Assembly (NCBI GenBank): GCA_964030475.1
Contig: CAXIPT010000011.1
Span: 415,673-479,672 of the forward strand
DNA length: 64,000 nucleotides
Direction: 5' to 3'
Source: Tethya wilhelma
Lineage: Eukaryota; Porifera; Demospongiae; Tethyida; Tethyidae
Part shown: piece after piece, positions 6,257 to 49,040 of the stretch
Layout: the number at the start of each line of letters is the position of its first letter
Position numbering within the stretch: position 1 is the first letter of the stretch
The notes under the pieces: model-generated
Seen by the model: only the letters and a program-made list of their open reading frames with translations
The model's database searches: none
What the model was told of the DNA's origin: nothing
Position numbers and translations under genes: made by a program

Positions 6257-6289
<33 letters not shown>

Positions 6290-6290
6290 T
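6202..6290. repeat. CA dinucleotide microsatellite
   Basis: A nearly pure (CA)n tract with a few TACA variants. It opens the second copy of the repeated block, as the CA tract at 1-23 opens the first. Confidence 0.9.
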
Positions 6291-9122: not shown

Positions 9123-9198
9123 GATTCTTCCTCCTTGAGTCAACACACACAGCAGTTAGCATGGGACACGCCCTAAAGTTATCTACCCGCCCACCCCC

Positions 9199-9736
9199 AG
9201 AGGAGGTTGGACATGCGTAATAATTACGTCATAGTAGCGAGTTTAATTAGCATTCCTGGATAACTGTCCTTGCTCATTTCTGCCATCACACCGAATGAAG
9301 CAGCTTACTATGGCTGGTTTTTGATTGTTCGAGCAACAAAGATGTAGGATACAAGTCAAGAAGTCAAGAGCACAACTTTTTGCTAATTATGTTCACGTTC
9401 TAATCAGAATATCTGAGAATTTTGCAGGGGCTCAGCGGGGCTTGGCTGCTGTCTAACCTTTGCTGTCCAAGGTCTATCCAGAGCAGCAGCTTTGTTGATG
9501 TGCAAAGCTGCAGAAAGCCCTGAACACGATGAAACTGTATAACATCAATGGTTTTGCAATGTTTTTTCCACTTTTTTTTTAATTTGCAAGTAGAACATCG
9601 TCAAGGATGAGCGTATTTTCCTCAGGCTGCTTTATTTCATCCCGACCACTTCCATTTCACTATTTACAAATGACCGAGAGCAGTCGATGTACATGCAAAT
9701 TAGTTTCGCACGTGATGCGTGTCCAACCTCCTCTGG
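9199..9736. mobile_element. MULE-like MITE with 9-bp target duplication
   Basis: Starts AGAGGAGGTTGGACA and ends TGTCCAACCTCCTCTGG. CCCACCCCC is repeated on both sides (9190-9198 and 9737-9745). The paralogous site near 4040 (ccgcccacccccgtcc) is empty. The termini match the short element at 736-890, so both belong to one family. Its 538 bp contain no transposase. Confidence 0.75.
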
Positions 9737-9745
9737 CCCACCCCC

Positions 9746-10031
9746 GTCCTAACATATAATGGTGTCGACCCTTTACCTCCCAGTGAAGTAGGGAGAAGGT
9801 TATTACAAGAAATGACTGTAAAATGTGTACAAAATTATCGATAAAAACAGCAATATTATCTGTATACCAATGATAATGATGAATAATAAATAAAACATGG
9901 AGAAACTCAAAGTGTGCAGTATTTGAAGTCAAGTTAGCAGCTCTTGCCTGGAGCATTAGTCTTTATAAAGTTGTAGGCAGCCTGAGGGTATATGTATGTG
10001 TGTGTGTGTGTGTGTGTGTTGTGTGTGTGTT

Positions 10032-10066
<35 letters not shown>

Positions 10067-10071
10067 TATAC
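9746..10071. repeat. Noncoding sequence with TG and GA microsatellites
   Basis: About 9746-9990 shows no gene. Positions 9997-10031 are a TG-rich tract and 10035-10064 a GA tract. The same TG-GA pair recurs at 15733-15835, next to the same exon of the second VPS9-family copy, so it was duplicated together with that gene. Confidence 0.7.
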
Positions 10072-12039: not shown

Positions 12040-12041
12040 CT

Positions 12042-12074
<33 letters not shown>

Positions 12075-12103
12075 CACACACACCTATCTGTCTGTCAGCT
12101 GCN

Positions 12104-12738
12104 TACCAGGCCCTCTCCTGTCTTGATGGGAGGGGCCTGGGTACGAGGCTAGTGGTAATCATGACATACAAGTTGCCACAAATAAAATAGTCTACAGATT
12201 TTTATAAGCTTACTCTAAACCTGGTGCTCTTTTATTTATTACCAGAACGTCTATTAAAACCTGTACTACTGCAAATACAACATTTTATGTTGTCAAATTA
12301 AAATTTAATTCCTACTCAAAGTTCTTGTGAACGGAAAATTATTTGTGGTGTGAAATATTTACGTAATCAAAACCACAAGAATCCAGGAATTAAGTTGCTT
12401 TGTTTGGACACTACAAAGTTGAAGGTTGTAGTGTAAGTCAAACCATACTACTTGCTCGTAAAGTGAAGTTGATGACCATTACCAGTTTCGTCAGTAGTAA
12501 CTTAATTGACTTATATTGTCTGTTGAAATGTAGTGGTATAACCTATAGCCTGACCATACATGCACTCCCTATTTTAGTGTTACATAACTAAAAAGAGATA
12601 GAGAGTATATGGATAGGCATTGCCAATTTGACACTCTGATTTTTGTGGATCATCATAAAATTTTTGTGGTTCGAACTTATTTTAATAACTCCAAAATTTT
12701 CCACTCTAGCTATGTATTTCTTGTACGATAATTTTCAG
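12104..12738. other. 5' region or intron of the first Roc-COR gene
   Basis: Begins just after an N (near 12103). AT-rich sequence without a convincing coding frame. It ends in the splice acceptor TTTTCAG at 12733-12738. One or more 5' exons carrying the start codon should lie here or have been lost at the join. Confidence 0.4.
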
Positions 12739-15707: not shown

Positions 15708-15729
15708 TAAACCCTGACATGATATTTTA

Positions 15730-15837
<108 letters not shown>

Positions 15838-15840
15838 TAC

Positions 15841-17746
15841 CTCATAAGTGACAAGGGTGTATTCATCTTCAGGTTGTGTGCTGGCAAAGTCCATCAGAAA
15901 ATGAAGATAAGCTCCAAGATGAGGAACACTACATGTGGAGATAAAGACTAAAGTTTAAACAAGAAAATCTTCAAATAAACCTTCAAAAGTATAATGAAAG
16001 AAATAAGCTAATACCGTAGATCGGGAAATTTTCGCCGCTATAAATTTTCGCTTGTTTAATTTTTGCGTGTTTAATTTTCGCCACTTTGACGCGATTCGGT
16101 AAAGATCACCATACGTTTTAAATTTTCGTGCGTTTAATTTCGCACTCGCGCACGTGGCGAAAATTTTTTAGCGACGAAAATTTCCCGATCTACGGTATAA
16201 CTTCTTAATTCCAACTAATAACACACACTAGCTCATTTACACAAACTTAATCCCAGCTGACATTACAAGTCTTCTAATCACTAGTAACTCACTTTGCTTT
16301 GCTAAGAATAAAGACCACTGCAGGTAGTAAGAAGTCGCCACTGAGCTGTTCAATCTAGTTGGACAGAAAGAAAGAGAGAAATTGTCATTAGTAAACACAC
16401 CATGTATTCTCATCTATGCTGTGACTCACTGAGCTGAGTTGAGTGAAGGCTGTCTTAAAGTGGTCCAGAAACTCACCAGGGGTGAACAGAGAACTGTACA
16501 ATGATCAAATAAATCAATATCATACATTAAAAGGAGTCTTGTCAGCCATGCAACAAGCTCTCTCTCACTTGATGACTCTCAGTGTGTTTGAAGCCTGGTC
16601 CAGAGCCTGTGGGAGGACAGAAACCGACATTGAAAATAATCAGTCACAACTGATCACACTCACAACTGGTGTAACAGTACATGACTTACTTTAAGTATCT
16701 CTCCCTTAGCCAGTCTCCCTACAATCTTATTACAGACACTCCTACATGGAGAACAGAAGGATCCAGAGAAGAAACAAACCCAGTCATTAATACAGCTAAA
16801 GTTCACCTGGTATAAAAATGCCGGTAGAAAAAATCTAAAAAATTTCTAAATATCCCACCGATTTCAAAATTTCAAGCACCATTGGAAATTGCTCGCTCTC
16901 CCTGTTCTTTTGATTGCTTTTCCAGCTTCCCATGCTTACCCGTCAAAAGTTAGGTATTTTGTCCCATAAGAAAAGTATTGCCCCACCCTCACCCCTCACT
17001 GCCTCACACCCTCACACCCTCACTGACTCACTATGGGAACTTGATGTAGTGCACCAGCCTCTCATTGTCCATTGCCTTGAGGAGATCCAGTCCTCTCTGG
17101 TAGAGGAGGTCCTCTCTCTCGTGATGGAGGACATAGAGGGTGATGAGAGTCGGGAAGAGACGGGTGAACACAAGGGAGTGGAGCAACATGTAACCTACAA
17201 CCAGGGAGAGACGAGGGAGAGAATGGGGCACTGACAAATACTGATGATAATTAATTTATGTCATTTTTATTCTAAATAATGAACACCACCAGCTGCTATC
17301 TGTATGAGGAAATACAATGAAAACAAATCTTCAAATCTAGCTGAGATTTGAATGCTAAAGTCCATCAGGTTCGAGAATGCCAGTAGAAATAACTTTCTTA
17401 TTATCCAACCGATTTCAACACCATTTGGAAAGCGCTCTTTTTCCTGTTCTTTTGGTTGCTTTTTCAACTTCCTACGCCTTATATGCATGCGTTACTTCTT
17501 TTTTTCACTTCAGGCAGCATTCTCAAACCAGATGGACTTTTAATTAGGCTGTTCGAATTCTAGTCAAATGCATGCATGCAGACATTACTAATACTTAAAA
17601 ATATTTTACTCTTATATATACTGACGGAATATTTCACCTGATTCAATGGAGACATAGTCATCAGGGTCTGAATATCCCTCTACCTTGGAGTGACCAAATT
17701 GAGAGATGTTTTCATCTCCTCCACTGAGATAGGGGAAGAGAATCCT

Positions 17747-17779
<33 letters not shown>

Positions 17780-18290
17780 CACACACACACACCTATCTGT
17801 CTGTCAGCTGCCCCTCACCTGACTATGCTGTGTATTCTCTTGATGATGGAGTGCATCTCAGTGATGGCGTGAGGAAGGAGATACTTGTTGGCCCCTATCC
17901 CCTCATAGGAGGCCTGATAGACACTCTCTAATGACCCTGCATGAGTAAACACATGCATGAGGAAGCCATAGGCATATGTTGGAGCAATTGAAAGCATTAG
18001 GAGTTATGACTACACACAAAATGAAAGAGAACTGATCTAATAAGCGTGGGCCTATATTCAACCAATCATCACTGACTGTAGGAGTAGGAAGAGTATGTAC
18101 CACACAACAGACAACCCTTTACAAACTTCTAGTAGAATAAACTGATGGACTCTCAAAGAAGAAATATGGCCATGTCGGCATATTAGCCACTGCATGGCAT
18201 TTTGCATGCTAGTGATTGTCACATCTATCTGTGAGGACCACTTACCAACTAATTCCATCTCAATGGCCTCGATCAGTGAACTACTACCAA
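15841..18290 (-). CDS. Alsin-like VPS9-domain protein, copy B
   Basis: The same exons as copy A, about 95 percent alike by eye: 15928-15841 (VPHLGAYLHFLMDF, EDEYTLVTYE), about 16345-16284 (LLPAVVFILSKAK), about 16492-16429 (SLFTPGEFLDHF), about 16608-16571, about 16742-16690, about 17198-17036 (LFPTLITLYVLHHERED) and about 17745-17640. Two further upstream exons are present here: about 17933-17816 (SLESVYQASYEGIGANKYLL then HSIIKRIHSIV) and about 18281-18248 (SLIEAIEMEL). These extend the helical region preceding the VPS9 core. The gene is convergent with the Roc-COR-Death gene. Further 5' exons are uncertain. A TA-flanked MITE lies in the intron at 16014-16195. Confidence 0.65.
16014..16195. 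mobile_element. Hairpin MITE, TA target (mariner-like)
   Basis: Ends CCGTAGATCGGGAAATTTTC and its complement, flanked by TA at 16012-16013 and 16196-16197. The first VPS9 copy reads ataagctaatataacttc at the same place (near 10238), giving a base-exact empty site. A decayed relative without its right end lies at about 53663-53800. Confidence 0.85.
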
Positions 18291-18665
18291 AACAGAGATT
18301 GGTCCAGGACTACACATACACCTAGCCACCTACACAGAAATGAAGTGTTTCTATTATAAATGAAACTCAGTATAAAGATCATTTTAGGTATGCTACTATA
18401 TATACCTTGAAAAGTGTTCTCCTAGCAATACACAAATAAATAGCAACACTATATAGGACAATTAAGATGGACACTTATGGACGAGTGCATTTACCTCTCC
18501 TGCCATATTGTGTTCTCAATAGGCCACATGATCCCTGGAGGGGCAATAAATAGAAACACACACTCTTGTCTGCTGCAGGCAGAGAAGGAAGAAGAGAGCT
18601 GTTGGGTTGACTCCCTCTCACCTCTAGACACCAACCATCCTACAACCTTGACACACATATAATTA
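18291..18665 (-). other. Possible 5' exon region of VPS9-family copy B
   Basis: Between an AG after CTGCAG and a GTAAATG donor (about 18585-18494, minus strand) a frame reads DKSVCFYLLPLQGSCGLLRT. The same segment recurs near 49835-49920 and 59955-60040 upstream of the same neighbouring exons, so it travels with the VPS9 family. I cannot say whether it is translated. Confidence 0.35.
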
Positions 18666-19218
18666 CAAGGGGTAGTCACTCCCACTCCGCATATGGTTCC
18701 GTTTGCGACCGGGATCAAGATGGAATCAAGAAATCAAAGCAGATTTTCAACAAGAATCAAGCGATCAAGCTTGCTTTGTGGTCGAAACTCGATCAAGATC
18801 AAGAATGCCGCGACTATTATGACGTAATAGCTAGACTGTGCAATTTCAATTTTTTTTTTTCGTATTAATAGAAATGTATATACAGTTAGCTGGTTAGAGC
18901 GAGCTCTGCTCGTAAAAGTGAGAGAGAGTTTGATTTGCCAGTCTGGATTGGTGCAGATGACACTTTTACTCCAGAGTACCAGCATTAAATTCATTTTGTA
19001 GCAGTTCCTTCTCAAACTGTAGTTAGTTACGCGCGTTTTGCACGTGCAACCGCCTGAGGGTCAAAGTTCATTGATCAAGCGCTAGGTTTGACTTCGATCA
19101 AAGGATCAAGGACAATTTTTACTGTAGATCAAGCGATCAAGGCGACTTTTAGTGGATCAAGACTCTTGATCCCGGTCGCAAACGGAACCATACACCGAGT
19201 GGGAGTGACTACCCCTTG
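18666..19218. mobile_element. TIR element with AATTA target duplication
   Basis: Terminal inverted repeats start CAAGGGGTAGTCACTCCCAC and extend about 50 bp with a small mismatched patch. AATTA flanks both sides (18661-18665 and 19219-19223). The homologous places at about 49975 and 60128 lack the element. The interior has many GATCAAG-type motifs on both strands, resembling subterminal transposase-binding repeats. No coding sequence is seen. Confidence 0.7.
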
Positions 19219-20300
19219 AATTAATACACAAACTTGAGAGGAACAATGTGTAGTTTGATTAGCACTGGTTACCTGATAAAATGCCATGTGTATCAGTGGT
19301 AACCTAACAGTGGGATGGGTCCAATGAAAGACTAGTGTGGTTGTCTCCATTCACCTGTCCACACGGTCCCAGCTGGGGGCAATAAATAGAAATGACTAGA
19401 GAGAAACGTCCATGGAATTAGACTGAGAATGAGCTGGTCACCAGACACACACACACAGTGGCATTTATGTGACCTTTCATTTTATTTCAGAGGTCATCCA
19501 GTGCCTGTATGTCAGTTAGAGGCTTGAACCAAGCCAGCGACTAAAGTCAAGTGCCATTGTATAGCTAATGCTAAAGCTACTATCAGGGAAGTCACATAAG
19601 ATTGGTCATAGTACTGATTTAATAGTACCTCTTGTTTTGTGCGGCTCTTGCTTACAACACTTGTACCCGCGCTCCTTTCTTCCTTGTGAGACAGATAGTA
19701 TCCCTTTAGTGACCAACCCTCTTCCCAGGCCAAGTACAGAGACTGAGAGGAACTCCTAAGAGAGGGAAGGAGAGAGAGAACAACCAGGCAGAACTTGAGC
19801 GCCATACTGTATTGGAGATTAATGACCATGCGCACAAAAGGACCGCTACATGATGTCATTTTTGAGGTTATTTTTAGTCAATCTATTTATAGACACCACT
19901 ATGAGTTTTATAACGAGGTTTTGTGCACTGTAGAAGCTATAACACTCCTAGTTGCATGGTGCTGTTGATATCATCAATGAATGTTTAAAAGATGCAAAGT
20001 CGGAAGTCAGTATGTTTGAAAGATGTAATGACAGAAAGATACGTTCAAAAGGATGCAATGTCGGAAGGATGCATGCAATTTCAATCGGAAAGATATGTTA
20101 AAAAGGTGTACATGTAATGTTTTAATGTAAGAAAGATATGTTTAAAGGATGCATTGTGAGAAAGATATAATTATATGTTTTAAAGATGCAATGTCAATAA
20201 AATTTGTTTGAAAGATGCACTGTTAGAAAGACATGTTTAAAGATGCATTGTTTGCAAAGATATTATACATGCATGAACTCCTCCATGCCACTAACAGGTT
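19219..20300. repeat. VPS9-family upstream repeat with short tandem motifs
   Basis: Homologous to about 49980-51110 and 60120-61200. A minus-strand frame starting MALKFCLVVLSLLPSL (about 19805) resembles a signal peptide, but its copies differ in frame, so I do not call a gene. From about 19990 to 20275 there are imperfect tandem repeats built on GAAAGATATGTTTAAA and GATGCAATG, also seen at 50925-51110. Confidence 0.5.
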
Positions 20301-32385: not shown

Positions 32386-33785
32386 TTTATCTCTGGTCTC
32401 CTCCAAGTCATGGAGCTCTGACTCAGCCTGGTTGATCCTCTCCTCACATCGTTGTACCTCCTCTTTATACCCCTTGACCTCCTTCTCCCAGTGTTCAATC
32501 TTCCCTTCTAGTTCTCTCCTCCACCAACCATCATCACTAGTGGTGGATAGTTCATGTCTCACCGCCTGCACACAATGAACACACATCAGGTTTGAAAATG
32601 GTCCACATCTACCCACCCTAATCAGACCACATGGTACACTCATCACTTACCTCTTCAGCATACCTCTGCTGTTGCTGACAGAATACTTTATCCTATGAGG
32701 GGTCACAGAGAGTAGGAAGGTAGGTTAATTAATGACCACAACACATTCACTAGTTAATTAACATCGTTATACACAGTCACATACATGATGTCATTATTAC
32801 ACAATATTGATTCCTCCTCAGTGGAACAGACATCACATGATCACTATATCAATGTCATGTGACAGTCAAATTAACATGGGAACTAGTGTTGACCTATGAC
32901 CCCACCCTCGCACGAGGAAAAAGGGTCTGGTAAACTTGGACACAATCTTCACACAAATTACATCATTGGAATGAAGTCACAAGTGAGGGGTGTGGTCAAG
33001 GTGGCATTATTATGTGGTCCCATGGTGTGTGATATAGCTAGTAGATGAGTTACCATGGTTATTGCTGTCGGATCACTACATGTGGAGAAGTAGTGCCACC
33101 ATAGCAACTGATTTGTAGTCACATGACAGACCCAATCTAATTCATCTGCAGCAAGGTCTGACCATTGTTTCAAAAGTCAGGGGACCATTTTCCTCACTAG
33201 AGGGTGGGGTCTGGCTACTAACATGCACTCAGTGTCAATGACTACATACACTTTTGGTTAGAGCAGTGACAGTCCATCACTACTGTAAACACACACACAA
33301 GTCGACATGAATTAAACAAAGGATGGAGCATATCAACATCCCACAACTCTGACAGTGAAAATAGAATGGTAGTACATCTACAGACAAACTTACTCCTTTC
33401 AAAAACTCTATGTGTCTCTTCTTCTGTGCCTGTAAGATGGAACCAACCAATCATGACTGATGATCATACATGACATGACCTCCTAACTACATGAAACAGA
33501 CACTCAAACGTCAACTAAGTCTACATTCATACCGTGGCCAAATTAAAACAATCACTAACTAATGATTATGATGTGAGGATATCTCAGACTAGCATTGACA
33601 GAAACAGCCTCAAACTTTGTAGAGGAACTGATCATGTAGCCACACATAAATTTTTGTAGGCTAATATTTATTACTGATGATTTGTCTCAACATGACATCA
33701 TCATAGTCCACAGCTAGTCTATTGGAGAACTTACTATTTCTCTTTCAATCTGTTCCAGTGTCAGTGGCTCCTCTTTGGCTGCCAT
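32386..33785 (-). CDS. Small coiled-coil protein, copy C
   Basis: Four exons as in copies A and B: ATG exon 33785-33735 (MAAKEEPLTLEQIERE-like), about 33433-33398 (AQKKRHIEFLKG), about 32695-32654 (DKVFCQQQQRYAEE) and about 32569-32386 (HELSTTSDDGW, QRCEERINQAESELHDLEE). The last exon is shorter at its 5' side than in copy A, with the sequence tcaccgcctgcac replacing the longer version. Its 5' flank is cut by the giant inverted-repeat element 27 bases beyond the ATG, so its promoter may be separated. Confidence 0.55.
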
Positions 33786-33811
33786 GATTCTTCCTCCTTG
33801 AGTCAACCACA

Positions 33812-36240
33812 GGCTCTGTGATCAAGTAGAAGAAGATCCAAATGACGTCATGTATATAAATCATGATAATAGGTATAGGACCGTGACGTCAACATGATGT
33901 GCAATAGAGAGTAATTGTGGTGCAGTGCCTGAGACTCTGACAGTAAGACAGTATGACAGTAGGACAGTGAGACAGTGTGACAGTATGACAGTGTGACAGT
34001 AAGACAGTAAGACAGTGTGACAGTAGGACAGTGTGACAGTAAGACAGTAAGACAGTGTGACAGTAGGACAGTGTGACAGTAAGACAGTAGGACAGTGAGA
34101 AAGTAAGACAGTGTGACAGTAGGACAGTGTGACAGTAAGACAGTAGGACAGTGTGACAGTACTGAAGACAGTGTGACAGTGAGACAGTAAGACAGTGTGA
34201 CAGTAAGACAGTGAGACAGTAAGACAGTGTGACAGTGAGACAGTAGGACAGTGTGACAGTAAGACAGTAAGAGAGTGTGACAGTATGACAGTGCAGTCAC
34301 TGGGACTCTGTGACAGTGAGACAGTGTGAAAGAGGCACACATACAGCCGGCAGTGATAGGGATGTACAGTAAGGTGTACAGCTAGGCAGTATAAGACCAA
34401 CGAGACAGAATATCAGTGGAGCAGTAAGTTATAGCATGACTGTGACAGTGAAACCAGAATAGTGTGGATGTGTTCTAATTAGAACGATGATCTTGGTTTG
34501 TTATTTATAGCATGACAATATTTTCTACTGTTGTTTTGTTCGCTGATGTAGGTTGTAGCTATACATGAGGAAAGATGTGAGATCATCCACTTTGTTTTGT
34601 TCTATGGAACCTCAATCGATCGGTATGGGCGTACTTAATTACCTTAGAGCATGTGCATGCAAATACTAAACTTGATATTGATGGACACTAGTACATGCAC
34701 TGTAATTCTGTGTCACTTCCTTTCTCCTCCTACCTATGTGTTACTTCCTTTCTCCTCCTACTTAATTCATTTTCAGTTTAGTTCAGTTCAAAGTGTCAGT
34801 GCAAGGTGATATTTCTGGTGTGCTTCATATCATTGCAGTGAAAGGTAAGAGGACTTTATTTATTGTAATGGTGTATGTAATGAGGTTATTTTCCATTTTC
34901 TGATTAGTGCCACTTGTACATCTGCATGACTGCATGCATGTATGTGTGCTAGCTGTGATAATTCATATTAATTGGCAACCCCTATTACATTTTCCTATAT
35001 TCTTGTGCTAGCGGGCTCACTTATGAATTGGTAGTCAAATGTGAACCACAAAAGGCCTACTGAAGTGTCAGATGTGCAGTGTTAACAGCTTAGTCTTGTG
35101 ACAATAATCAATATGGTTCTTGAAAACTGGAAGTGTTTGGAAAATGGAAGCAATTGTTTTGAGCTAGCTATTATTTTGTGCATTTTGTTTTATGTTTGGT
35201 AATCTGTTAAGCAAAAATAATAATAGCTAATGGATGCATAAAGATAGACTAGTGGTTCGGCAAGGTTCTACCCTATCTGTATGTGAATCTGAAGGTGTTA
35301 ATTACCAGACTAAGCACAAGAAAAATTCACACAGAGTGAAAATTAGTGTTGATCATTGTGTACAGTTGTGTGGACTATCTTAGAAATTGGGACACTCTTT
35401 TCTCTCTCTTTTCTCTCTCTTTTAACTTCACCTTTGGAGTTAAGATTTTCACTTCACTTTAGTGTTCTTCCGTGTATCAAGTGCGTTCTCCTCTGCTTGG
35501 TGTTTGTTCATCTAATTTCCACCTCTAGTTTCAGTACCCTCTTCTCACAGTCTTGTTTCATGGTGTGTTTGCTTTTTGCGTCTGTTGCAGACTGCCTTGG
35601 TGAATCGTGTGCGTATTGCTCCCTCCATGGGTGTAGCGTTTGGTCACTACTCTCTCCTCACAGTCTTGTAAGTGTGTTTGTTCATCTAATTTCCACCTCT
35701 AGTTTCATGGTGTGTTTGATTTTTGCATGTGTTGCAGAGTGCCTTGGTGAATCGTGTGCGTATTGCTCCCTGGGTGTAGTGTTTGGTCACTACTCTCTCC
35801 TCACAGTCTTGTAAGTGTGTTTGTTTGTCGATTTCCACCTCTTGTTTCATGGTGTGTTTGCTTTTTGCGTCTGTTGCAGACTGCCTTGGTGAATCGTGTG
35901 CGTATTGCTCCCCGGGTGTAGTGTTTGGTCAGTACCCTCTTCTCACAGTCTTGTAAGTGTGTTTGTTCGTCTAATTTCCACCTCTAGTTTCATGGTGTGT
36001 TTGATTTTTGCATGTGTTGCAGAGTGCCTTGGTGAATCGTGTGCGTATTGCTCCCCGGATGTAGTGTTTGGTCACTACTCTCTCCTCACAGTCTTGTAAG
36101 TGTGTTTGTTTGTTGATTTCCACCTCTAGTTTCATTGTGTTTTTGCTTTTTGCGTCTGTTGCAGACTGCCTTGGTGAATCGTGTGCGTTTTGCTCCCCGG
36201 GTGTAGTGTTTGGTCAATACCCTCTTCTCACAGTCTTGTA
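33812..36240. repeat. Left terminal inverted repeat
   Basis: Inverted copy of about 46468-48940. From the outside: a 130-bp end containing atgacgtcatg, the GACAGTNN satellite, unique sequence (about 34330-35245) with a stretch ctatcttagaaattgggaca (35367-35390), then the tandem exon-like array. High identity between arms suggests recent activity or ongoing conversion. Confidence 0.85.
33944..34325. repeat. GACAGTNN octamer satellite, left arm
   Basis: About 45 tandem octamers of GACAGT followed by two variable bases (AA, TG, AG, GA). On the opposite strand all three frames stay open (Leu-Ser-His-Cys and similar), because an 8-base period cycles through the frames without creating stops. The apparent open frames are therefore not evidence of protein. 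Confidence 0.9.
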
Positions 36241-36245
36241 AGTGT
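35515..36245 (+). repeat. Tandem exon-like array, left arm, about 143-bp units
   Basis: Five units with a period of 142-147 bp. Each contains a consensus acceptor (ctgttgcag) followed by a 73-nt segment (ACTGCCTTGGTGAATCGTGT ... CTCACAGTCTT) and a consensus donor (gtaagtgtgttt). The intervening 70 nt resembles a minimal intron of the size seen elsewhere in the window. Splice signals point toward the NTPase gene that starts about 190 bases downstream. At 73 nt the segment is not a multiple of three, so spliced units would shift frame; a noncoding leader is more likely than a protein repeat. Confidence 0.75.
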
Positions 36246-36437
36246 GTTCTTTTGTCAATTTTCACCTCAGTATGTAAAGGTGTTTTTTATTCATTTTTAA
36301 TTTTTTAGCATTAATTGTTTACTGTGAATTCGTAGAGAGATAGTTTACTATATACATGTTTTCATCACACATTACATTGCAATAAATTCAAATATGCATG
36401 ACATTGTACTATAGCTTTATGTTTGTTTTAGGTAAAT

Positions 36438-37579
36438 ATGGTAGTTACATTAGTAACTGTTCATATCATCAACATGCAGGTAATGGCAACACCATCAGCT
36501 AAACGAAAGAGGATTAGCAGTCCTACATTTGGTAGTCCAGCTCACGATGACATAATTTCTTCGGTCAGGGATGCTCAAAGTGTTTCGTTTCCCTGGGATG
36601 AGGCAGTGCCTCCAACAATCAAAACATGGTTTATTGCTCTTGGAAAGTCACACAATTGCCCACCAGAGTTCCTCTTGGTTGGAGCACTTGTGTCCACTGC
36701 TGCAATTATGGGTCCCAATACATCGATTGAGATTAGGAAAACGTACACTGAGCCATTGAATCTGTATGTTATATGTATTGGCGTTCCTGGGGCTGGTAAG
36801 AGTCAGTGTCACAGGATGGTAGCTGTCGATCCTATCTTGGAACTACCACAGCCATTATCTTCGATGCTTGTTGATGATTACACAAAAGCTGGTTTGCTTC
36901 GTCACCTTCAAAGACATGAAGGGCGGGCATTGATTGCACATGAAGAAATGGGAGCATTTTTTGACTTGGTGCAAAAGAGACAGTTTGAAGGTCAAGGAGA
37001 GAGACAAATGTATTGTCGTCTATACGATGCTGGGAGATGGTCTCGGCATACTGCATCTGGTACATAGTAAAATAGTACATAGTACACAGTACATACGTAG
37101 TACATAGTATTTTTAAGGAACTACTTGAAATGTGTGGAATGTGTATCAAACACTACACAGGGTCTCAAAAGCAGGACGGAGCACAGGAATGTAGTGACCA
37201 CAACTGTGTGTGCATACTGGGATATATGCAACCCCATCCCTTTATAGCCAAGACGTTACCGATACTGAGGGAAACGGATGATGGGTTTTTCGACTGTCTC
37301 CTTGTGTGCTGTCCTAAGACGAAGGTTTTAAAAGAGGAGGTAAAATCTCTTTGCACATGCACACACGTGCAGGTATTACGTAAAAGTTATGTACATGCTC
37401 TCACCCACCTTTTTTGGTAAAACATGTATTATTACCATTATTTGGGAGCATGTATCATTGAGTGCATGGCTAACTATTGTGTTGAGTTTGCAATTATTCC
37501 CTTTCAAGATTTGGTTGCTAGTCCGTAGCAAACACATGACATTGCACACACACACACGCACACATGCACACACACGCAT

Positions 37580-37624
<45 letters not shown>

Positions 37625-38776
37625 GGAGCTTGATGATTGGTGCACCACTCTACAGCAGCAACAAATCCAGTCACTGACAGAACCATTCAGATTGGTGAAC
37701 AAATGGCATGCATCAGATGTAGAAGTGACCTACAAGTTTTCAGATGAGGGTGCAAAAGTATATCGTGAGTTTGCTAACGAAATGGCAGATGTTCTCAATG
37801 AACAGTGGGAGTCCGGAAACTTGCAGGGTAGCAATAGATCCAAGGACAAGCGAACACTGATCAGGTAGATGCGTGCATGTAGTACATGTCATCTGTGTAC
37901 ACAATATTGTATACACAACTCTACTGTTTTTAGCATAATAGTTTGTATGACTGTGCTTAACACATTACATGTACATGTATACAGATTGAGCGGAGCAATC
38001 CATGTCCTATATGCAGCTATAGACAGGTGCTTAAGGAGTGGAGAGCAAACCCAACCAAACACAACACCGCCGAGAAGTGGAATTGACAGCAGGAGTCCAT
38101 CACCTACCCAGCCTTCGAATTCAGCAATAGATACAGAGGAGCTGACAACAGAAATAAGCAATCAAGAAGTGAAAATGGCTGTGGCGCTGACTGATTACTT
38201 TCATGAGCAGAGGATTGCTTTTGAACAGGTACAATGTTTCATGTAAATATTGTAGCTATAAATAATAGCACTATCGGCTTAATGAACATAGGAGAATTAT
38301 AACTGCATGTAAGATAGTACACACCAATAAGTATTTGTATTTTCTATAGCTGGTTAATCTTCCAGTCTCAAGAGAATCACCAGCAGCTGAGCAGGCTTTA
38401 GCACACACGATATTGCTGGCCAAAGGAGCATTCTGTACTCCAAGAAGCATCTGTCGATCCGTGACAACGAGAAAAAAAGCCAACCTCTGATGAAGTTGCA
38501 CAAGAAATGAAGAAATTGGCAAATGGAGGGTTGGGAAAGTATGTTGCAACAAGAGACAAAGTTTTTTACAAGCCTTTGCCTATTGAAGCAAACAAAGATG
38601 CCATAAAGAACATTGTGGACTTTGAAACTTATAAAAATTCCTTTGCACAGCCTGAAAATTTGCCACCGACACACTTCTCAAGTGCACAATATGACAGGCT
38701 ACTGACCAATGCACCTGACTCTTCAAAACTTCGTGAAGAGTACAACTTCAGCTTCTCGGGATCTAGTGGAGATTGA
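36438..38776 (+). CDS. DUF3987-like P-loop NTPase of the giant element
   Basis: Proposed exons: 36438-37059, 37161-37339, 37626-37864, 37985-38228 and 38350-38776, all GT-AG with consistent phase, about 570 residues. The ATG at 36438 follows an acceptor TTTTAG; ATG 36483 (MATPSAKRKR) is an alternative start. Exon one has PPEFLLVGALVSTAAIMGPN and the Walker A motif GVPGAGKSQ (residues 115-123). It is followed by RALIAHEEMGAF and, in exon two, ILGYMQPHPF. This order matches DUF3987 proteins, known from mobile elements and often associated with primases or helicases. A CA tract (37543-37620) is in intron two. In the last exon one extra A near 38472 breaks the frame; the duplicated copy at 40395-40744 lacks it, so the break may be an allele or error. 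ATPase activity is inferred only. Confidence 0.65.
37543..37620. repeat. Intronic CA microsatellite
   Basis: (CA)n immediately before the TTGCAG acceptor of the third NTPase exon. The pyrimidine tract is largely replaced by CA repeats. Confidence 0.85.
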
Positions 38777-40393
38777 ACTTTCACATCCAACACATTCACA
38801 TCCAGCTACCGTACACATTTCAACACTCTTATAATAATCATGTCATCAATCAGTCATATAGGGTTCATGCACATTCATCATTATTTTCTTGATTTATACA
38901 CTTGCATTGATCAATCGCAGATCGATCCAGGCCAATCATAATCATCAACTCATTATTTGTATAACTACGTATACTTATGTCATTATTTACAATGTACATA
39001 TTTAGCAAAGTATACAATGTATTTAGCAAACATTAATTTTTGTGACAATAATTATCATAGGTCATGTGAGAGTTAACATGAATGTAATAATGAATTGTAT
39101 AATAATGGGCATTAAGTGGAATACGTATACAGTGCATGAATATAGACATTTTAGATTTCACGACTATACTGTTGGTACAACACTTCACTCTTAAACATGG
39201 TTTGTTTCATGACAGATTTGATTTCCTCCTGGCTTCTCTGATAGACAGATATCTCAATATTCAATTGTGATGCTAATCTCACAATAGAAGTGTAGATGCT
39301 ATACACTTTGAAAACATCTCCATCATCCATACATTGACAGTTAAAGTGTTTATCTAAGACAGTCTGCATGACACTGCACACAATCAGGTATTCCATCTTA
39401 CTGAAGTTACCAACTTTAACTGGTTCTCCAACCTCCTTGACGAATGTAGACGTGGCTTTTCCTCTTAAAGGTACCTTTTGATTTTCAAACTTTTCCCTCT
39501 TACGTTTCCCAGATGCTTCTGTCACTACCAGTTTTGGCCGTACACCAAATGGATTTGCACATGATCTGCATCGACATGTCTCATTACAAGGCTTTTCTGC
39601 TTTAAAGCACGGACATCGACATGTATATTCAGAGATGGAAAATGAACAAGGAACACCTTTCATTGTTGATTTTTTTCCACAGTTACATTTTAATTTTGTC
39701 ATGACAGGTTTGTTCGTGACATCGGTTAATGGCTCCTTGTCAGTACCATGGTTGGGACTCTGTACAGTAACAGTTTGATTGTCATTTTCCTGTGTGGTCG
39801 GAACAACAGCATCGTATAGTGACCTGCTCCACATTGTAGGAACGCAACATATATGGGGGTGTCATGTAACATTTCACAATAGGTTGGGTGTTGGATGACA
39901 ACTGGCATGTTCACTGCTGATGTCAGCAGAACTATTGGACACCTCAATGTATTGCTTAAAGCTGTAATAACCAAATCACCAATATCCGTTGCAAACACTC
40001 CAGGTTGTAAGAAGTGATGTGCTTGTTCCTGAAGCTGTCCCGCAGTCAAAAATTGCTGGTACTCATTACTGTGCGGACCTAGCCACTCTGCCACAGTCAT
40101 TTTTCTCAATTCTTGCACTAAACATTCTATTGGAATAGGTGTCGAGATATCAGACAAAAAGTTCCGTAGTGTTGCATTGCCTGCTTCAATTTGATATCTT
40201 ATACCGTGTGCAATAGCATAAAAGAGACAATCACCATCTCTAGGAGCAAAAACTCGGGTAAATTTCCATGATTTGAGAACTTCATTCAGCCGTGATTCGT
40301 GAGATGACACTTGAGACAGTTCCATTACTGCGGGATCATATAAGTTGGTACATATGTTGTCTGACATGAAAGGAAGAGACTTAATCTCGACAC
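38426..40393. repeat. Direct duplication, first copy (probable assembly duplicate)
   Basis: Nearly identical to 40395-42365 over about 1.97 kb, with the two copies abutting at a single N (40394). The first copy carries an extra A in the NTPase 3' exon and two extra bases in the OTU region (near 39815, gcatcgtatagtgac versus gcatcgtagtgac). Both break frames that are intact in the second copy. Two haplotypes placed in series is the simplest explanation. Confidence 0.75.
39151..40393 (-). pseudogene. Duplicate 3' part of the OTU-CXC transposase
   Basis: Covers the OTU region (FAPRDGDCLFYAIAHGI) and the CXC region (CRCPCFKAEKPC) of the gene described at 41125-44197. It stops at the N at 40394 and carries a 2-base insertion just upstream of the OTU histidine region that shifts the frame. 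It is more likely an assembly duplicate than a second gene. Confidence 0.7.
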
Positions 40394-40394
40394 N

Positions 40395-40744
40395 GAGCAT
40401 TCTGTACTCCAAGAAGCATCTGTCGATCCGTGACAACAAGAAAAAAGCCAACCTCTGATGAAGTTGCACAAGAAATGAAGAAATTGGCAAATGGAGGGTT
40501 GGGAAAGTATGTTGCAACAAGAGACAAAGTTTTTTACAAGCCTTTGCCTATTGAAGCAAACAAAGATGCCATAAAGAACATTGTGGACTTTGAAACTTAT
40601 AAAAATTCCTTTGCACAGCCTGAAAATTTGCCACCGACACACTTCTCAAGTGCACAATATGACAGGCTACTGACCAATGCACCTGACTCTTCAAAACTTC
40701 GTGAAGAGTACAACTTCAGCTTCTCGGGATCTAGTGGAGATTGA
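40395..40744 (+). pseudogene. Duplicate last exon of the NTPase gene
   Basis: Second copy of 38426-38776. Here the frame is open from SVTTRKKPTSDEV to the stop after FSGSSGD, which indicates the intended reading of that exon. It has no upstream exons because the preceding sequence is the end of the duplicated transposase piece. Confidence 0.75.
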
Positions 40745-41124
40745 ACTTTCACATCCAACACATTCACATCCAGCTACCGTACACATTTCAACACTCTTAT
40801 AATAATCATGTCATCAATCAGTCATATAGGGTTCATGCACATTCATCATTATTTTCTTGATTTATACACTTGCATTGATCAATCGCAGATCGATCCAGGC
40901 CAATCATATAATCATCAACTCATTATTTGTATAACTACGTATACTCATGTCATTATTTACAATGTACATATTTAGCAAAGTATACAATGTATTTAGCAAA
41001 CATTAATTTTTGTGACAATAATTATCATAGGTCGTGTGAGAGTTAACATGAATGTAATAATGAATTGTATAATAATGGGCATTAAGTGGAATGAATACGT
41101 ATACAGTGCATGAATATAGACATT

Positions 41125-44100
41125 TTAGATTTCACGACTATACTGTTGGTACAACACTTCACTCTTAAACATGGTTTGTTTCATGACAGATTTGATTTCC
41201 TCCTGGCTTCTCTGATAGACAGATATCTCAATATTCAATTGTGATGCTAATCTCACAATAGAAGTGTAGATGCTATACACTTTGAAAACATCTCCATCAT
41301 CCATACATTGACAGTTAAAGTGTTTATCTAAGACAGTCTGCATGACACTGCACACAATCAGGTATTCCATCTTACTGAAGTTACCAACTTTAACTGGTTC
41401 TCCAACCTCCTTGACGAATGTAGACGTGGCTTTTCCTCTTAAAGGTACCTTTTGATTTTCAAACTTTTCCCTCTTACGTTTCCCAGATGCTTCTGTCACT
41501 ACCAGTTTTGGCCGTACACCAAATGGATTTGCACATGATCTGCATCGACATGTCTCATTACAAGGCTTTTCTGCTTTAAAGCACGGACATCGACATGTAT
41601 ATTCAGAGATGGAAAATGAACAAGGAACACCTTTCATTGTTGATTTTTTTCCACAGTTACATTTTAATTTTGTCATGACAGGTTTGTTCGTGACATCGGT
41701 TAATGGCTCCTTGTCAGTACCATGGTTGGGACTCTGTACAGTAACAGTTTGATTGTCATTTTCCTGTGTGGTCGGAACAACAGCATCGTAGTGACCTGCT
41801 CCACATTGTAGGAACGCAACATATATGGGGGTGTCATGTAACATTTCACAATAGGTTGGGTGTTGGATGACAACTGGCATGTTCACTGCTGATGTCAGCA
41901 GAACTATTGGACACCTCAATATATTGCTTAAAGCTGTAATAACCAAATCACCAATATCCGTTGCAAACACTCCAGGTTGCAAGAAGTGATGTGCTTGTTC
42001 CTGAAGCTGTCCCGCAGTCAAAAATTGCTGGTACTCATTACTGTGCGGACCTAGCCACTCTGCCACAGTCATTTTTCTCAATTCTTGCACTAAACATTCT
42101 ATTGGAATAGGTGTCGAGATATCAGACAAAAAGTTCTGTAGTGTTGCATTGCCTGCTTCAATTTGATATCTTATACCGTGTGCAATAGCATAAAAGAGAC
42201 AATCACCATCTCTAGGAGCAAAAACTCGGGTAAATTTCCATGATTTGAGAACTTCATTCAGCCGTGATTCGTGAGATGACACTTGAGACAGTTCCATTAC
42301 TGCGGGATCATATAAGTTGGTACATATGTTGTCTGACATGAAAGGAAGAGACTTAATCTCGACACGAGCTGTATCACTTACTTTGGATACTTGTCTATGG
42401 GTAAAATACCACATCACAGCTTTCACCAGTATTTGTTTGACAGCGTGATCAGGCATGGTAATAGAGACATCCATTTCATCGCTAAGTTCATCGGTTTCAG
42501 TGTAACTTTTTTGTTGTATACATGGTGACATCCCACATATTCTATCGATCATTTGTTGATACGAACAGTTAGAAATATCCAGACGTAGCACTGAATCAGA
42601 GTTGTTCACTACAGTTGATGACTTGCAAAAGTTAATCCCAAAACGTTCTGTGGTAGCAGGTGTGTTGACAAATAACTGTTGATAAAACTCTATAGAGCGA
42701 GATGGTCTGTTCTCTAAATTTGATATCATCTTTTCGTTATGGTTAAAAAAGCAGCATGAATAAAGAGCATATGCTAGCTCGATTCCATATCTAGATGACG
42801 ACATAATACCATTCAATTGCTTGTGGAGGTTTTCGTTTCTATTGGTTCCTCTACCGCGTTTTATCCCCGATAAACAGCCATTCTGCATATGCTTACGGAT
42901 GTTTTGAACTTCTTTTAATGCTGCTTCATTCAATACTGGCACACCATCATACTTGACTGTCTTCCACTTCTTCAAAAATTTGTCCAAATTAGATTCGAGG
43001 ACTGATGGAGATGGAGTTGTCATACAACGATCTATTCCCTTGTCTGCTGGGTCGTGAAACACAGTTTTCCATTCACTCATGCATGTACTCCGTAGAGGAT
43101 GCCGTTTTGGAATTTTTTCTCCTACCCTCTTGATAGCATGAAACAGATCTAAATACACAGTCAGGTTGTCACCAAACACTTTTTGTAACAGCTTTCTCCA
43201 TGAACAACAGTTGTCGATATAGAATTCAGACAGCACCTTCCCTTGAGTATGAAGACGTTCATTCAATGAAGTAAGATGACTCTCGATAACAGCAAATGAT
43301 ACTCCTGAAGAGAGTTTCCATGTTACAACCTGTCCAATTCCATTTAGAACACAAAACAGTGCACTATACTGTGTAATCCAACGATGGTCTCCTGCTTGTC
43401 CCATACCTATGTTAGCTGCGTGCATGTACAAAGCAACATTATTATGTATAGTACTTAATATAGGGACACAAAAGCGTAAACTCACTAGCTGATGAAAATG
43501 TGTGGTCACAACTAAGCCATAAGTCTTCTTGGTCACGATTGACAAGAGTAGTATTTTGCATGCATTTTGTGTAGGTTTCTTCTTTCCTCCAGAAACTTTC
43601 CAAAAAGCATCCAGATATTGCATGAACGCTGGGAACAACGCATGTAATTTCATGTTGGTCTTTTTGCGTAAGAATTGGCTGTGAAACATTTGAAGATTGA
43701 ATATGATTCAGTTTCATTTGCTGTGTGAAAAAACGAAATGATTGTCGTTTAACAAGAACATCCCGAACTCCATGAATACTCATTCCTGTAGACAGTAAAA
43801 CAAAAATTAGTTCGGCACACTCCACAGTGAAACCAGTGATATGCCATAAACGAAATGGCACAAAACATGAGGGAATCTCGCGGAGCAAAGCTGGGTTATA
43901 GGCCAATATCTCATGTCCCGTAGCACACCTGTACACACGTCCAACTAGTAAGACAACAGAATCAAGTCCATATATCTTTCGTGGTTCTGATCTTGGACCA
44001 CTAACACCATCTCTCCATCCACAAGGATGAAGTGTCCTATTATTGTCTGTTTCCAAACACTTCGGACAAATCAGTCTGTCTTTCAGGAAAGGGAATTGTT

Positions 44101-44197
44101 CTAATGGTGACCATAACAAAACAGGTGGAATGAAAAACATTGCTGGACAAGGCGGGTTAGATGTCAAAATTTGAGGAAAATTATGGAATGATAGCAA
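41125..44197 (-). CDS. Transposase with zinc-binding, DDE-like, OTU protease and CXC regions
   Basis: Exon 44197-43486, a 70-nt intron (GTGAGT...GCACGCAG, 43485-43416), exon 43415-41125; 1000 codons in all. The 44197 codon is TTG, so the start is further upstream or at Met19; an in-frame ATG at 44341 is separated by a TAG at 44258-44260. Order (numbering from 44197): a CPKC/CATGH zinc-binding region resembling DUF6729 (about 40-100); the candidate DDE core SCDHTF (Asp231), FYIDNCCSWR (Asp305), LDLFHAIKR (Asp327), GTNRNENLH (Glu432); an OTU-type cysteine protease with DGDC (Cys643) and GHY (His779); and a CXC tesmin/TSO1-like region (about 823-871, CRCPCF, CRCRSC). The intron falls three codons after DHTF, and splicing restores TNIGMGQ. 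DDE cores cut and join transposon ends; OTU domains remove ubiquitin; CXC domains bind DNA. Confidence 0.75.
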
Positions 44198-44460
44198 TGA
44201 GGGTGATGATGGATTTTCATTGTTGAATTTGCAACAGATATTTGATATAAAAAGGCACTATTCTGTGGGAAGTCGAGAAGCAGTGATGCAGTTCTGTGAC
44301 AGAAGCACGATAACAAGTGCAACACTTGCTATATTCGACATGTTAATCAACTGACCTAAAATAAGTTATAAAATTCATTTATTACAGAGTAATATCGAAT
44401 GTAAAAATCAAACAGACAAAGAACTCAGACATGGAAATTGACGAACAAACATACTTAATT
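44198..44460 (-). promoter_or_regulatory. Presumed 5' leader of the transposase gene
   Basis: Between the inward array and the coding exon there is an acceptor-like TTATTTTAG (about 44364-44356, minus strand), followed by an ATG at 44341. This parallels the TTTGTTTTAG plus ATG arrangement upstream of the NTPase gene. It suggests that both genes receive a leader from their adjacent inverted repeat. The in-frame stop noted above means the exact splicing is unknown. Confidence 0.4.
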
Positions 44461-44947
44461 ACACGATTGTGAGGAGAGAGTATTGACCAAACACTACACC
44501 CGGGGAGCAATACGCACACAATTCACCAAGGCAGTCTGCAACAGAGGCAAAAAGCAAACACACCATGAAACAAGAAGTGGAAATTAAATGAACAAACACA
44601 CTTACAAGACTGTGAGGAGAGAGTAGTGACCAAACACTACACCCGGGGAGCAATACGCACACGATTCACCAAGACAGTCTGCAACAGTTTCAAAAATCAA
44701 ACACACAATGAAACTAGATGTGGAATTTAGATGAACAAACACACTTACAAGACTGTGAGGAGAGAGTATTGACTAAACACTACACCCGGGGAGCAGTACG
44801 CACACGATTCACCAAGGCAGTCTGCAACAGACGCAAAAAAGCAAACACACCATGAAACATGAGGTGGAAATCGACAAAAAAACACACTTACAAGACTGTG
44901 AGGAGAGAGTATTGACCAAACACTACACCCGGGGAGCAATACGCACA
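44461..44947 (-). repeat. Exon-like array next to the transposase gene
   Basis: About three and a half units of the 143-bp array on the minus strand, so acceptors and donors face the transposase gene. It ends abruptly at 44947, where sequence in the opposite orientation begins. Confidence 0.75.
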
Positions 44948-46383
44948 GATAGACTAGTGGTTCGTCAAGGTTCTACCCTATCTGTATGTGAATCTGAAGG
45001 TGTTAATTACCAGACTAAGCACAAGAAAAGTTCACACAGAGTGCAAATTAGTGTTGATCATTGTGTACAGTTGTGTGGACTATCTTAGAAATTGGGACAC
45101 TCTTTTCTCTCTCTTTTAACTTCACCTTTGGAGTTAAAATTTTCACTTCACTTTAGTGTTCTTCCGTGTATCAAGTGCGTTCTCCTCTGCTTGGTGTTTG
45201 TTCATCTAATTTCCACCTCTAGTTTCAGTACCCTCTTCTCACAGTCTTGTTTCATGGTGTGTTTGCTTTTTGCGTCTATTGCAGACTGCCTTGGTGAATC
45301 GTGTGCGTATTGCTCCCTGGGTGTAGCGTTTGGTCACTACTCTCTCCTCACAGTCTTGTAAGTGTGTTTGTTCATCTAATTTCCACCTCTAGTTTCATGG
45401 TGTGTTTGCTTTTTGAAACTGTTGCAGACTGCCTTGGCGAATCGTGTGCGTAATGCTCCCCAATTGTAGCGTTTGGTCACTACTCTCTCCTCACAGTCTT
45501 GTAAGTGTGTTTGTTCATCTAATTTCCACCTCTTGTTTCATGGTGTGTTTGCTTTTTGAAACTGTTGCAGACTGCCTTGGTGAATCTTGTGCGTATTGCT
45601 CCCTGGGTGTAGCGTTTGATCACTACTCTCTCCTCACAGTCTTGTAAGTGTGTTTGTTTGTCTAATTTCCACCTCTTGTTTCATGGTGTGTTTGCTTTTT
45701 GAAACTGTTGCAGACTGCCTTGGTGAATCTTGTGCGTATTGCTCCCTGGGTGTAGCGTTTGATCACTACTCTCTCCTCACAGTCTTGTAAGTGTGTTTGT
45801 TTGTCGATTTCCACCTCTTGTTTCATGGTGTGTTTGCTTTTTGCGTCTGTTACAGACTGCCTTGGTGAATCGATTTCCACCTCTTGTTTCATGGTGTGTT
45901 TGCTTTTTGCGTCTGTTGCAGACTGCCTTGGTGAATCGTGTGCGTATTGCTCCCCGATTGTAGTGTTTGGTCACTACTCTCTCCTCACAGTCTTGTAAGT
46001 GTGTTTGTTCATCTAATTTCCACTTCTAGTTTCATGGTGTGTTTGCTTTTTGAAACTGTTGCAGGCTGCCTTGGTGAATCGTGTGCGTATTGCTCCCTGG
46101 GTGTAGCGTTTGGTCACTACTCTCTCCTCACAGTCTTGTAAGTGTGTTTGTTTGTCGATTTCCACCTCTTGTTTCATGGTGTGTTTGCTTTTTGCATCTG
46201 TTGCAGACTGCCTTGGTGAATCGTGTGCGTATTGCTCCCCGTGGGTGTAGCGTTTGGTCACTACTCTCTCCTCACAGTCTTGTAAGTGTGTTTGTTTGTC
46301 GATTTCCACCTCTTGTTTCATGGTGTGTTTGCTTTTTGCGTCTGTTGCAGAGTGCCTTGGTGAATCGTGTGCGTATTGCTCCC
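44948..46383 (+). repeat. Exon-like array in the opposite orientation, up to the gap
   Basis: Starts with inner-arm sequence (agatagactagtggttcg, as at 35248) and runs into about eight 143-bp units on the plus strand. One unit is partly duplicated near 45870. This orientation faces away from the transposase gene and does not fit a simple two-arm element. It is either a local inversion or a misassembly near the gap. Confidence 0.7.
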
Positions 46384-46467
46384 NNNNNNNNNNNNNNNNN
46401 NNNNNNNNNNNNNNNNNNNNNNNNNNNNNNNNNNNNNNNNNNNNNNNNNNNNNNNNNNNNNNNNNNN
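46384..46467. other. Assembly gap (84 N)
   Basis: Run of N within the tandem array. The array orientation changes across it. Confidence 0.99.
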
Positions 46468-48940
46468 CTACACCCGGGGAGCAATACGCACACGATTCAC
46501 CAAGGCAGTCTGCAACAGTTTCAAAAAGCAAACACACAATGAAACTAGAGGTGGAAATTAGATGAACAAACACACTTACAAGACTGTGAGGAGAGAGTAT
46601 TGACCAAACACTACACCCGGGGAGCAATACGCACACGATTCACCAAGGCAGTCTGCAACAGTTTCAAAAATCAAACTCACAATGAAACTAGAGGTGGAAA
46701 TCGATAAACAAACGCACTTACAAGACTGTGAGGAGAAAGTAGTGACCAAACACTACACCTGGGGAGCAATACGCACAAGATTCACCAAGGCAGTCTGCAA
46801 CAGTTTCATAAAGCAAACACACCATGAAACTAGAGGTGGAAATTAGATGAACAAACACACTTACAAGACTGTGAGGAGAGAGTAGTGACCAAACGCTACA
46901 CCCAGGGAGCAATACGCACACGATTCACCAAGGCAGTCTGCAACAGTTTCAAAAAGCAAACACACCATGAAACTAGAGGTGGAAATTAGATGAACAAACA
47001 CCAAGCAGAGGAGAACGCACTTGATACACGGAAGAACACTAAAGTGAAGTGAAAATCTTAACTCCAAAGGTGAAGTTAAAAGAGAGAGAAAAGAGTGTCC
47101 CAATTTCTAAGATAGTCCACACAACTGTACACAATGATCAACACTAATTTTCACTCTGTGTGAATTTTTCTTGTGCTTAGTCTGGTAATTAACACCTTCA
47201 GATTCACATACAGATAGGGTAGAACCTTGACGAACTACTAGTCTATCTTTATGCATCCATTAGCTATTATTATTTTTGCTTAACAGATTACCAAACATAA
47301 AACAAAATGCACAAAATAATAGCTAGCTCAAAACAATTGCTTCCATTTTCCAAACACTTCCAGTTTTCAAGAACCATATTGATTATTGTCACAAAACTAA
47401 GCTGTTAACACTGCACATCTGACACTTCAGTAGGCCTTTTGTGGTTCACATTTGACTACCAATTCATAAGTGAGCCCGCTAGCACAAGAATATAGGAAAA
47501 TGTAATAGGGGTTGCCAATTAATATGAATTATCACAGCTAGCACACACACATGCATGCAGTCATGCAGATGTACAAGTGGCACTAATCAGAAAATGGAAA
47601 ATAACCTCATTACATACACCATTACAATAAATAAAGTCCTCTTACCTTTCACTGCAATGATATGAAGCACACCAGAAATATCACCTTGCACTGACACTTT
47701 GAACTGAACTAAACTGAAAATGAATTAAGTAGGAGGAGAAAGGAAGTAACACATAGGTAGGAGGAGAAAGGAAGTGACACAGAATTACAGTGCATGGCTA
47801 TGACTTTGAGGAGAGGAAGTACTAGTGTCCATCAATATCAAGTTTAGTATTTGCATGCACATGCTCTAAGGTAATTAAGTACGCCCATACCATACCAAAA
47901 TTGATCTGGATCGATCGATTGAGGTTCCATAGAACAAAACAAAGTGGATGACCTCACATCTTTCCTCATGTATAGCTACAACCTACATCAGCGAACAAAA
48001 CAATAGTAGAAAATATTATCATGCTATAAATAACAAACCAAGATCATCGTTCTAATTAGAACACATCCACACTATTCTGGTCTCACTATCACAGTCATGC
48101 TATAACTTACTGCTCCACTGATATTCTGTCTCGTTGGTCTTATACTGCCTAGCTGTACACCTTACTGTACATCCCTATCACTGCCGGCTGTATGTGTGCC
48201 TCTTTCACACTGTCTCACTGTCACAGAGTCCCACTGCACTGTCATACTGTCACACTCTCTTACTGTCACACTGTCCTACTGTCACACTGTCTCACTGTCT
48301 TACTGTCACACTGTCTTACTGTCTCACTGTCTTACTGTCTTACTGTCACACTGTCTTACTGTCACACTGTCTTACTGTCTTACTGTCACACTGTCTTACT
48401 GTCACACTGTCTTACTGTCTTACTGTCACACTGTCTTACTGTCTCACTGTCCTACTGTCTTACTGTCACACTGTCTTACTGTCACACTGTCTTACTGTCT
48501 TACACACTGTCATACTGTCTTACTGTCACACTGTCACACTGTCTTACTGTCTCACTGTCCTACTGTCTTACTGTCAGTGTCACACTGTCTTACTGTCACA
48601 CTGTCTTACTGTCACACTGTCTTACTGTCATACTGTCTCACCGTCACACTTTCATACAGTCTCACTGTCAAACTGTCATACTGTCTTACTGTTACTGTCT
48701 CACTGTCACACTGTCTTACTGTCACACTGTCTTACTGTCACACTGTCTTACTGTCACACTGTCATACTGTCTCACTGTCACACTGTCATACTGTCTCACT
48801 GTCCTACTGTCATACTGTCAGAGTCTCAGGCACTGCACCACAATTACTCTCTATTGCACATCATGTTGACGTCCTATACCTATTATCATGATTTATATAC
48901 ATGACGTCATTTGGATCTTCTTCTACTTGAGCACAGAGCC
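46468..48940. repeat. Right terminal inverted repeat
   Basis: Reverse complement of the left arm. It contains about four array units (46468-47000), unique sequence (47003-48180), the octamer satellite (about 48205-48825, longer than on the left) and the terminal 110 bp ending at 48940. Confidence 0.85.
48205..48825. repeat. Octamer satellite, right arm
   Basis: Tandem CTGTCNNA-type octamers, the complement of GACAGTNN. It is about 1.6 times longer than in the left arm, so array length differs between the two ends. Confidence 0.9.
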
Positions 48941-49040
48941 GAATTCAGTGCTGATCTTGCTGTTGACAGACAGTTAATTTGATGGTAGACTCACACCTAT
49001 ACAGCATAGAAATTAAACACAAAATTAAACTTTTGCATCT
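48941..49040. other. Right flank of the giant element, up to an N
   Basis: About 100 bases (gaattcagtgctgatcttgc onward) that do not resume the coiled-coil 5' flank seen at the left end. This leaves the insertion site unresolved. An N at 49041 separates it from VPS9-family sequence. Confidence 0.6.

Follow-up and report, generated by a model that had tools for sequence, protein, structure and literature searches.

The bacterial transposons Mu, Tn7 and IS21 combine a DDE enzyme with a separate ATPase partner (MuB, TnsC and IstB, respectively). In eukaryotes, to our knowledge, it would be unusual for a DNA transposon to have such an ATPase as a separate partner. Maize MuDR is read convergently from promoters in its terminal inverted repeats (TIRs), and the DxxH motif is a mark of enzymes of the Mutator-like element (MULE) type. 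The target duplications of MULEs measure 8-11 bp, according to PMC6446971. Here we describe an element from the sponge Tethya wilhelma, located in a stretch of 64,000 nucleotides of contig CAXIPT010000011.1 (C11; positions 415,673 to 479,672), hereafter the window. It couples a DUF3987 P-loop protein, termed gene A throughout, with a DDE-OTU-CXC transposase, termed gene B.

Two genes within long terminal inverted repeats

The existence of a long-TIR DDE element with both genes is supported, because A and B are found together at three loci and one of these, on contig C99, is a complete element that has TIRs and is bounded by a target duplication of 8 bp. Our searches ran over the genome of 124.6 Mb (204 contigs), with loci merged by hand at 20 kb and a co-location threshold of 15 kb. 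There are 9 A loci and 23 B loci, of which 3 are shared (the window, C99 and C2:1.28 Mb), against 0.05 expected.

The C99 element spans 9,327 bp (4224-13550), with N runs outside it only. Both of its ends read GGCTGATGGCACATTTAGCGGG inward, giving GGCT... termini, and ACTAAAAG flanks the element on either side as a perfect 8-bp target duplication. The same site without the element, GCTTAGCACTAAAAGGCTTCT, occurs in paralogous repeats at 6 distinct places in the fetched loci (9 matching rows, three of them repeating a place in overlapping loci). GACAG-type arrays are present in both arms, pointing inward. Gene B is on the minus strand (8322-5150) and shares 40% identity with the window copy over 793 aligned residues, while gene A is on the plus strand (8863 to ~12288). 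A second 8-bp target duplication is formed by an arm on C6 and the right arm of the window. The C99 copy offers a compact element for testing.

In the window, we assigned the following features, numbered from its first nucleotide.

33804..33811, no strand: left flank CAACCACA, without a matching copy at the right end
33812..36268, plus: left inverted arm, beginning with GGCTCTGTG, from the arm comparison and reading of the terminus
33843..33860, plus: TGACGTCA then TATATAAA near the end, possibly a promoter
33939..34326, plus: array of GACAG-type 8-bp units facing inward (44 GACAG words)
35551..36268, plus: 143-bp tandem units in which splice sites resembling acceptors and donors were identified by eye
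36483..38776, plus: gene A, coding for the DUF3987 P-loop protein in five exons separated by GT..AG introns (~36483-37059, 37161-37339, 37626-37864, 37985-38228, 38350-38776)
38426..40393 and 40395..42365, no strand: the same sequence, present once on each side of the N at 40394 through an unmerged overlap
41125..43415, minus: second exon of gene B, coding for OTU, CXC and the greater part of the DDE core
43485..43416, minus: single intron of gene B
43486..44140, minus: first exon of gene B, counted from the Met taken as its start, with a zinc-type N-terminal region and the first catalytic D
44258..44341, minus: 27-residue signal-peptide-like leader upstream of gene B, ending in an in-frame stop (44258-44260)
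44403..46383, no strand: 143-bp repeats whose orientation flips near 44946, adjoining an N gap; structure doubtful
46468..48940, minus: right inverted arm with GACAG array (CTGTC on the plus strand, 48210-48819), probably that of the C6 insertion
48941..49040, plus: 100-bp flank of the right arm, beginning with GAATTCAG and ending at the N at 49041

The original prediction, made from the letters of the window, described a DUF3987-like NTPase and an OTU-CXC transposase as two convergent genes between the arms, and the gene content stands. Gene A (plus, 36483-38776) reaches 61.4 bits against Pfam DUF3987 (cut-off 27, E 1.1e-16). The motif GxPGxGKSQ is found in 3/3 full gene A sequences, and Walker-type motifs are kept in the window, C99 and the homologue P0077. 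The reading frame of the last exon is broken in the copy ahead of 40394 but stays open in the copy that follows this N. A comparison of the gene A sequence with PDB gave zero matches at E 1.

As for gene B (minus, 44140-41128), the OTU domain matches above the Pfam cut-off (E 5.2e-9) and its fold keeps the catalytic Cys and His. The MSL2-type CXC domain lies below the cut-off in the window (E 0.001), and is matched in 16 of 42 homologues at E 0.1, with nine conserved Cys columns. The N-terminal stretch has a weak match to DUF6729 (E 0.0053). No Pfam match above cut-off was obtained for the DDE core of the window copy. Its models show an IS256-like fold, with an RNase H-like core, a long helical insertion before the catalytic E and the catalytic order D..D..DxxH..E. 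The NCBIfam scan gave one match only, far below cut-off. The VIA-align rows span mainly residues 584-787, so a family absent from those rows may still match elsewhere.

Outside this genome, profile searches gave 8 proteins for gene A, one from a named organism (Dendronephthya), and 76 for gene B, one likewise (Desmophyllum). These lists give proteins without their gene neighbourhood, co-location being known from the one genome only. In viral and genome collections, 18 and 44 pattern matches to gene B relatives were obtained, with 0 upheld by tblastn.

A signal-peptide-like N-terminus is present in 9 of the 13 gene B homologues of at least 995 residues (P0018, P0036, P0049, P0050, P0051, P0052, P0053, P0056 and P0074), compared with 13 of 264 control pieces. 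Gene B of C99 also has this leader, and in the window copy the in-frame stop follows it. It is conceivable, if rather doubtful, that the leader and OTU together mark a transposase that passes through, or is held at, the endoplasmic reticulum and escapes degradation there.

It is possible, and we hold this tentatively, that the element is an ordinary OTU-bearing member of the MULE superfamily, of the kind that includes MuDR-6_HM of Hydra (Cnidaria) in Repbase. The 8-bp duplications at C99 and at the C6 and window right arms fall inside the 8-11 bp range of PMC6446971, the DDE fold and the D..D..DxxH..E order fit, and Table 1 of that paper lists MuDR-6_HM as a MULE with an ovarian tumour gene. 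However, the Pfam MULE model matches only 1 of the 42 homologues, with E 0.13, and distant MULEs may escape this model. The MuDR-6_HM row (PMC6446971) gives one open reading frame and no TIR, and this row has no mention of a DUF3987 partner, long arms or GACAG arrays, in a comparison made by description only.

Possible roles of the two genes

We consider it probable that these elements form a two-gene DNA transposon family, in which gene B provides the transposase and gene A an ATPase partner. The IS256/MULE-like DDE core of gene B would join DNA with an 8-bp stagger, a length shown by the target duplications. The CXC cluster, perhaps with the N-terminal zinc region, may bind the inward GACAG arrays and pair the ends. 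The OTU domain, with its catalytic Cys and His, is probably an active deubiquitinase that would spare the transposase or its partners from turnover. The P-loop ATPase of gene A would most likely be an accessory factor that helps in assembly, in choosing the target or in a replicative step. Transcription of each gene in the window subfamily may start at a promoter within the long arm and run inward.

Several observations weigh against this reading. There is no partner within 15 kb at 6 of the 9 A loci and 20 of the 23 B loci, and three more weak A places from the P0077 query, outside the count of 9, are all without B. Gene order varies, being convergent in the window and on C2 and divergent on C99. 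The original prediction had looked to several copies with both genes, the same termini and flanking duplications for its decisive support. Both genes do recur together elsewhere, on C99 and C2, and the C99 copy is complete; the C2:1.28 Mb pair is decayed, with stops inside, a GACAG array beside B, and A 8.7 kb away, enclosed by two inverted copies of a different repeat. For the window subfamily, the genome yielded no complete copy. Lastly, the structure model of the gene A homologue P0077 had a predicted local distance difference test score (pLDDT) of 35 and was discarded, which leaves the role of gene A without structural support.

An alternative is that B alone is the transposon and A a passenger in some copies, dispensable for movement. 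The many B loci without A would agree with it, as would the varying position and orientation of A and the excess of B over A homologues among the matches listed outside the genome (76 and 8), for which queries and candidate numbers differ. We regard it as unlikely, as A and B meet at three loci of subfamilies so diverged that window and C99 B are only 40% identical, A keeps its Walker-type motifs in three sequences, and many lone loci are fragments or contain stops.

A genome-wide search for the terminus pattern GGCT-N15..38-AAATGACGTCAT gave 44 places, against 1 for the reversed control. Of these, 25 were inspected at letter level: 15 represent one GGCTAACGTATGACC-like repeat, and one more, with a run of A, appears chance-like. 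Four inverted pairs of termini lie within 20 kb, namely C99, the window, C7:2711692-2717355 (5.7 kb) and C60:30084-46193 (16.1 kb). The C7 and C60 pairs have zero A or B matches listed, a further point against the pairing of the two genes, and are perhaps non-autonomous or carry other genes. Single ends of this pattern are located 3.2 kb before A on C1:21.44 Mb and 3.8 kb before B on C36. Members of the family can be recognised readily by their shared end features (GGCT.., TGACGTCA, GACAG arrays and the 8-bp duplication).

The GGCTAACGTATGACC-like repeat is dispersed and has an end-like GGCTAACGTATGACCACGCC..AAATGACGTCAT, for example at C1:1107952 and C2:15007115. On C2:15.00 Mb, a fragment of gene B has one end from this repeat at a distance of 3.7 kb.

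Two other leads were set aside. In a search for GACAG, some of the matches listed are 4-bp-spaced simple repeats, and its control is worthless because GACAG reads the same backwards. A 20-kb inverted AGCTCTGTGCTCAAATA pair at C132:13829-34041 has retroelement-like open reading frames in 13700-20000 and 33400-34200.

Assembly of the window copy

The inverted arms (33812-36268 and 46468-48940) share 719 nt at 99% and 325 nt at 98%, with 92.2% identity over 2166 columns overall, and GGCTCTGTG is the terminal sequence at both ends. Thus the long inverted ends with matching motifs were correctly predicted, including the outer end at 48940. That both arms bound one giant transposon is the claim that most likely fails at this locus. 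Immediately beyond the ends, the left and right 8-base flanks are unlike (CAACCACA on the left, GAATTCAG on the right), and therefore a target duplication does not bound the window unit. An arm at C6:3412591 is preceded by GAGGAATTCAG, which pairs with the right flank GAATTCAG as a duplication of 8 bp. At C8:1727410, a copy of the same repeat that lacks the element reads ..AAGTCGTGAGGAATTCAGTGCTGATC... From this empty site and the shared 8 bp, the C6 arm and the right arm of the window bounded one insertion, and the two arms of the window therefore most likely belong to different insertions. Arms from unrelated loci had been named as an outcome contrary to the original prediction; this is nearly the case for the window copy, and not for the family.

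The window contains N at 40394, 46384-46467 (84 N) and 49041. The right arm sits on a piece of ~2.6 kb, delimited by the gap of 84 N on one side and the single N at 49041 on the other, and the simplest reading of the flank mismatch is that this piece was misplaced in the assembly.

Furthermore, the sequences on the two sides of the N at 40394 (up to 40393 and from 40395) can be aligned right to both edges, with 1,959 of 1,974 columns identical. We read this ~1.97 kb as an unmerged contig overlap. A biological duplication within the element (38.4-42.4 kb) was dropped, since the alignment extends to both piece edges. The 15-kb size in the window is inflated because this overlap is written twice. 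The piece before 40394 carries the left arm, gene A and the 3' part of gene B, unbroken, and the piece after it the end of gene A, the whole of gene B and the inner arm repeats. As both carry the genes, the A-B pair is independent of the doubtful right piece. The window thus shows the element in at least three assembly pieces.

The mismatch of the ends could also be biological, if the C11 and C6 copies had swapped ends by recombination within their arms. The arms are long and alike, and such an exchange would yield the flanks seen here. We find it improbable, given that the piece carrying the right arm is short, with 100 bp of flank between two N stretches, and that a single N likewise ends three further arms of this subfamily (C6, C11:483 kb and C32), as expected where an assembly breaks at a repeat. 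An intact, single 15-kb transposon in the window, as drawn, is very hard to credit, as the agreement of its termini and the order of its inverted arms are outweighed by the unlike 8-bp flanks, the overlap written twice and the pairing of the right flank with C6. Misplacement remains the preferred reading, and the case illustrates how long inverted arms can produce a false unit in a scaffolded assembly.

In terms of the repeats, each 143-bp unit of the left arm (35551-36268) has an acceptor-like and a donor-like site around ~73 nt, as if the units were repeated non-coding mini-exons in a leader. The orientation flip near 44946 could stem from a chimeric piece or from a genuine palindrome. The left flank (33560-33811) is itself a repeat, with 87-93% copies at C11:418132, 424581 and 437938, within 31 kb upstream.

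Comparison with known systems

By structure, gene B resembles PDB 6xgx, 6xgw and 6xg8, which we take to be ISCth4 of the IS256 family, with 15% identity. ISCth4, a bacterial insertion sequence with a single gene, is not known to carry OTU, CXC or an ATPase.

Among eukaryotic elements, Rehavkus also has a minisatellite near the TIR, combined with a 9-bp duplication and a PHD finger (PMC6446971, in part), in contrast to the 8 bp found here and to zero PHD finger matches in the 42 gene B homologues. Zisupton/KDZ shares the 8-bp duplication (PMC12730594); the KDZ transposase domain is absent among the 19 Pfam families matched by the 42 homologues at E 0.1. Maize MuDR resembles the element in having two genes, mudrA and mudrB, and the passage on them in PMC6446971 makes no mention of a DUF3987 P-loop protein for mudrB. 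A word search of the accessible text of the KolobokP paper (PMC9587614) found no mention of OTU or DUF. In our literature search, as far as the retrieved text goes and with Repbase outside it, a DUF3987 partner in an animal transposon was unreported, and the matching DUF3987 papers concerned bacteria or phages, judging by their titles and abstracts.

It is conceivable, if rather doubtful, that these elements constitute a separate animal transposon superfamily, with a leader-bearing DDE-OTU-CXC transposase and a dedicated ATPase that would choose targets or remodel the complex. The likeness to Mu MuB, Tn7 TnsC and IS21 IstB is by analogy only, gene A being a DUF3987 protein. If gene A is needed, this would be an animal-type element with a Mu/Tn7-like division of labour, as in bacteria, and with a deubiquitinase-type domain inside its transposase.
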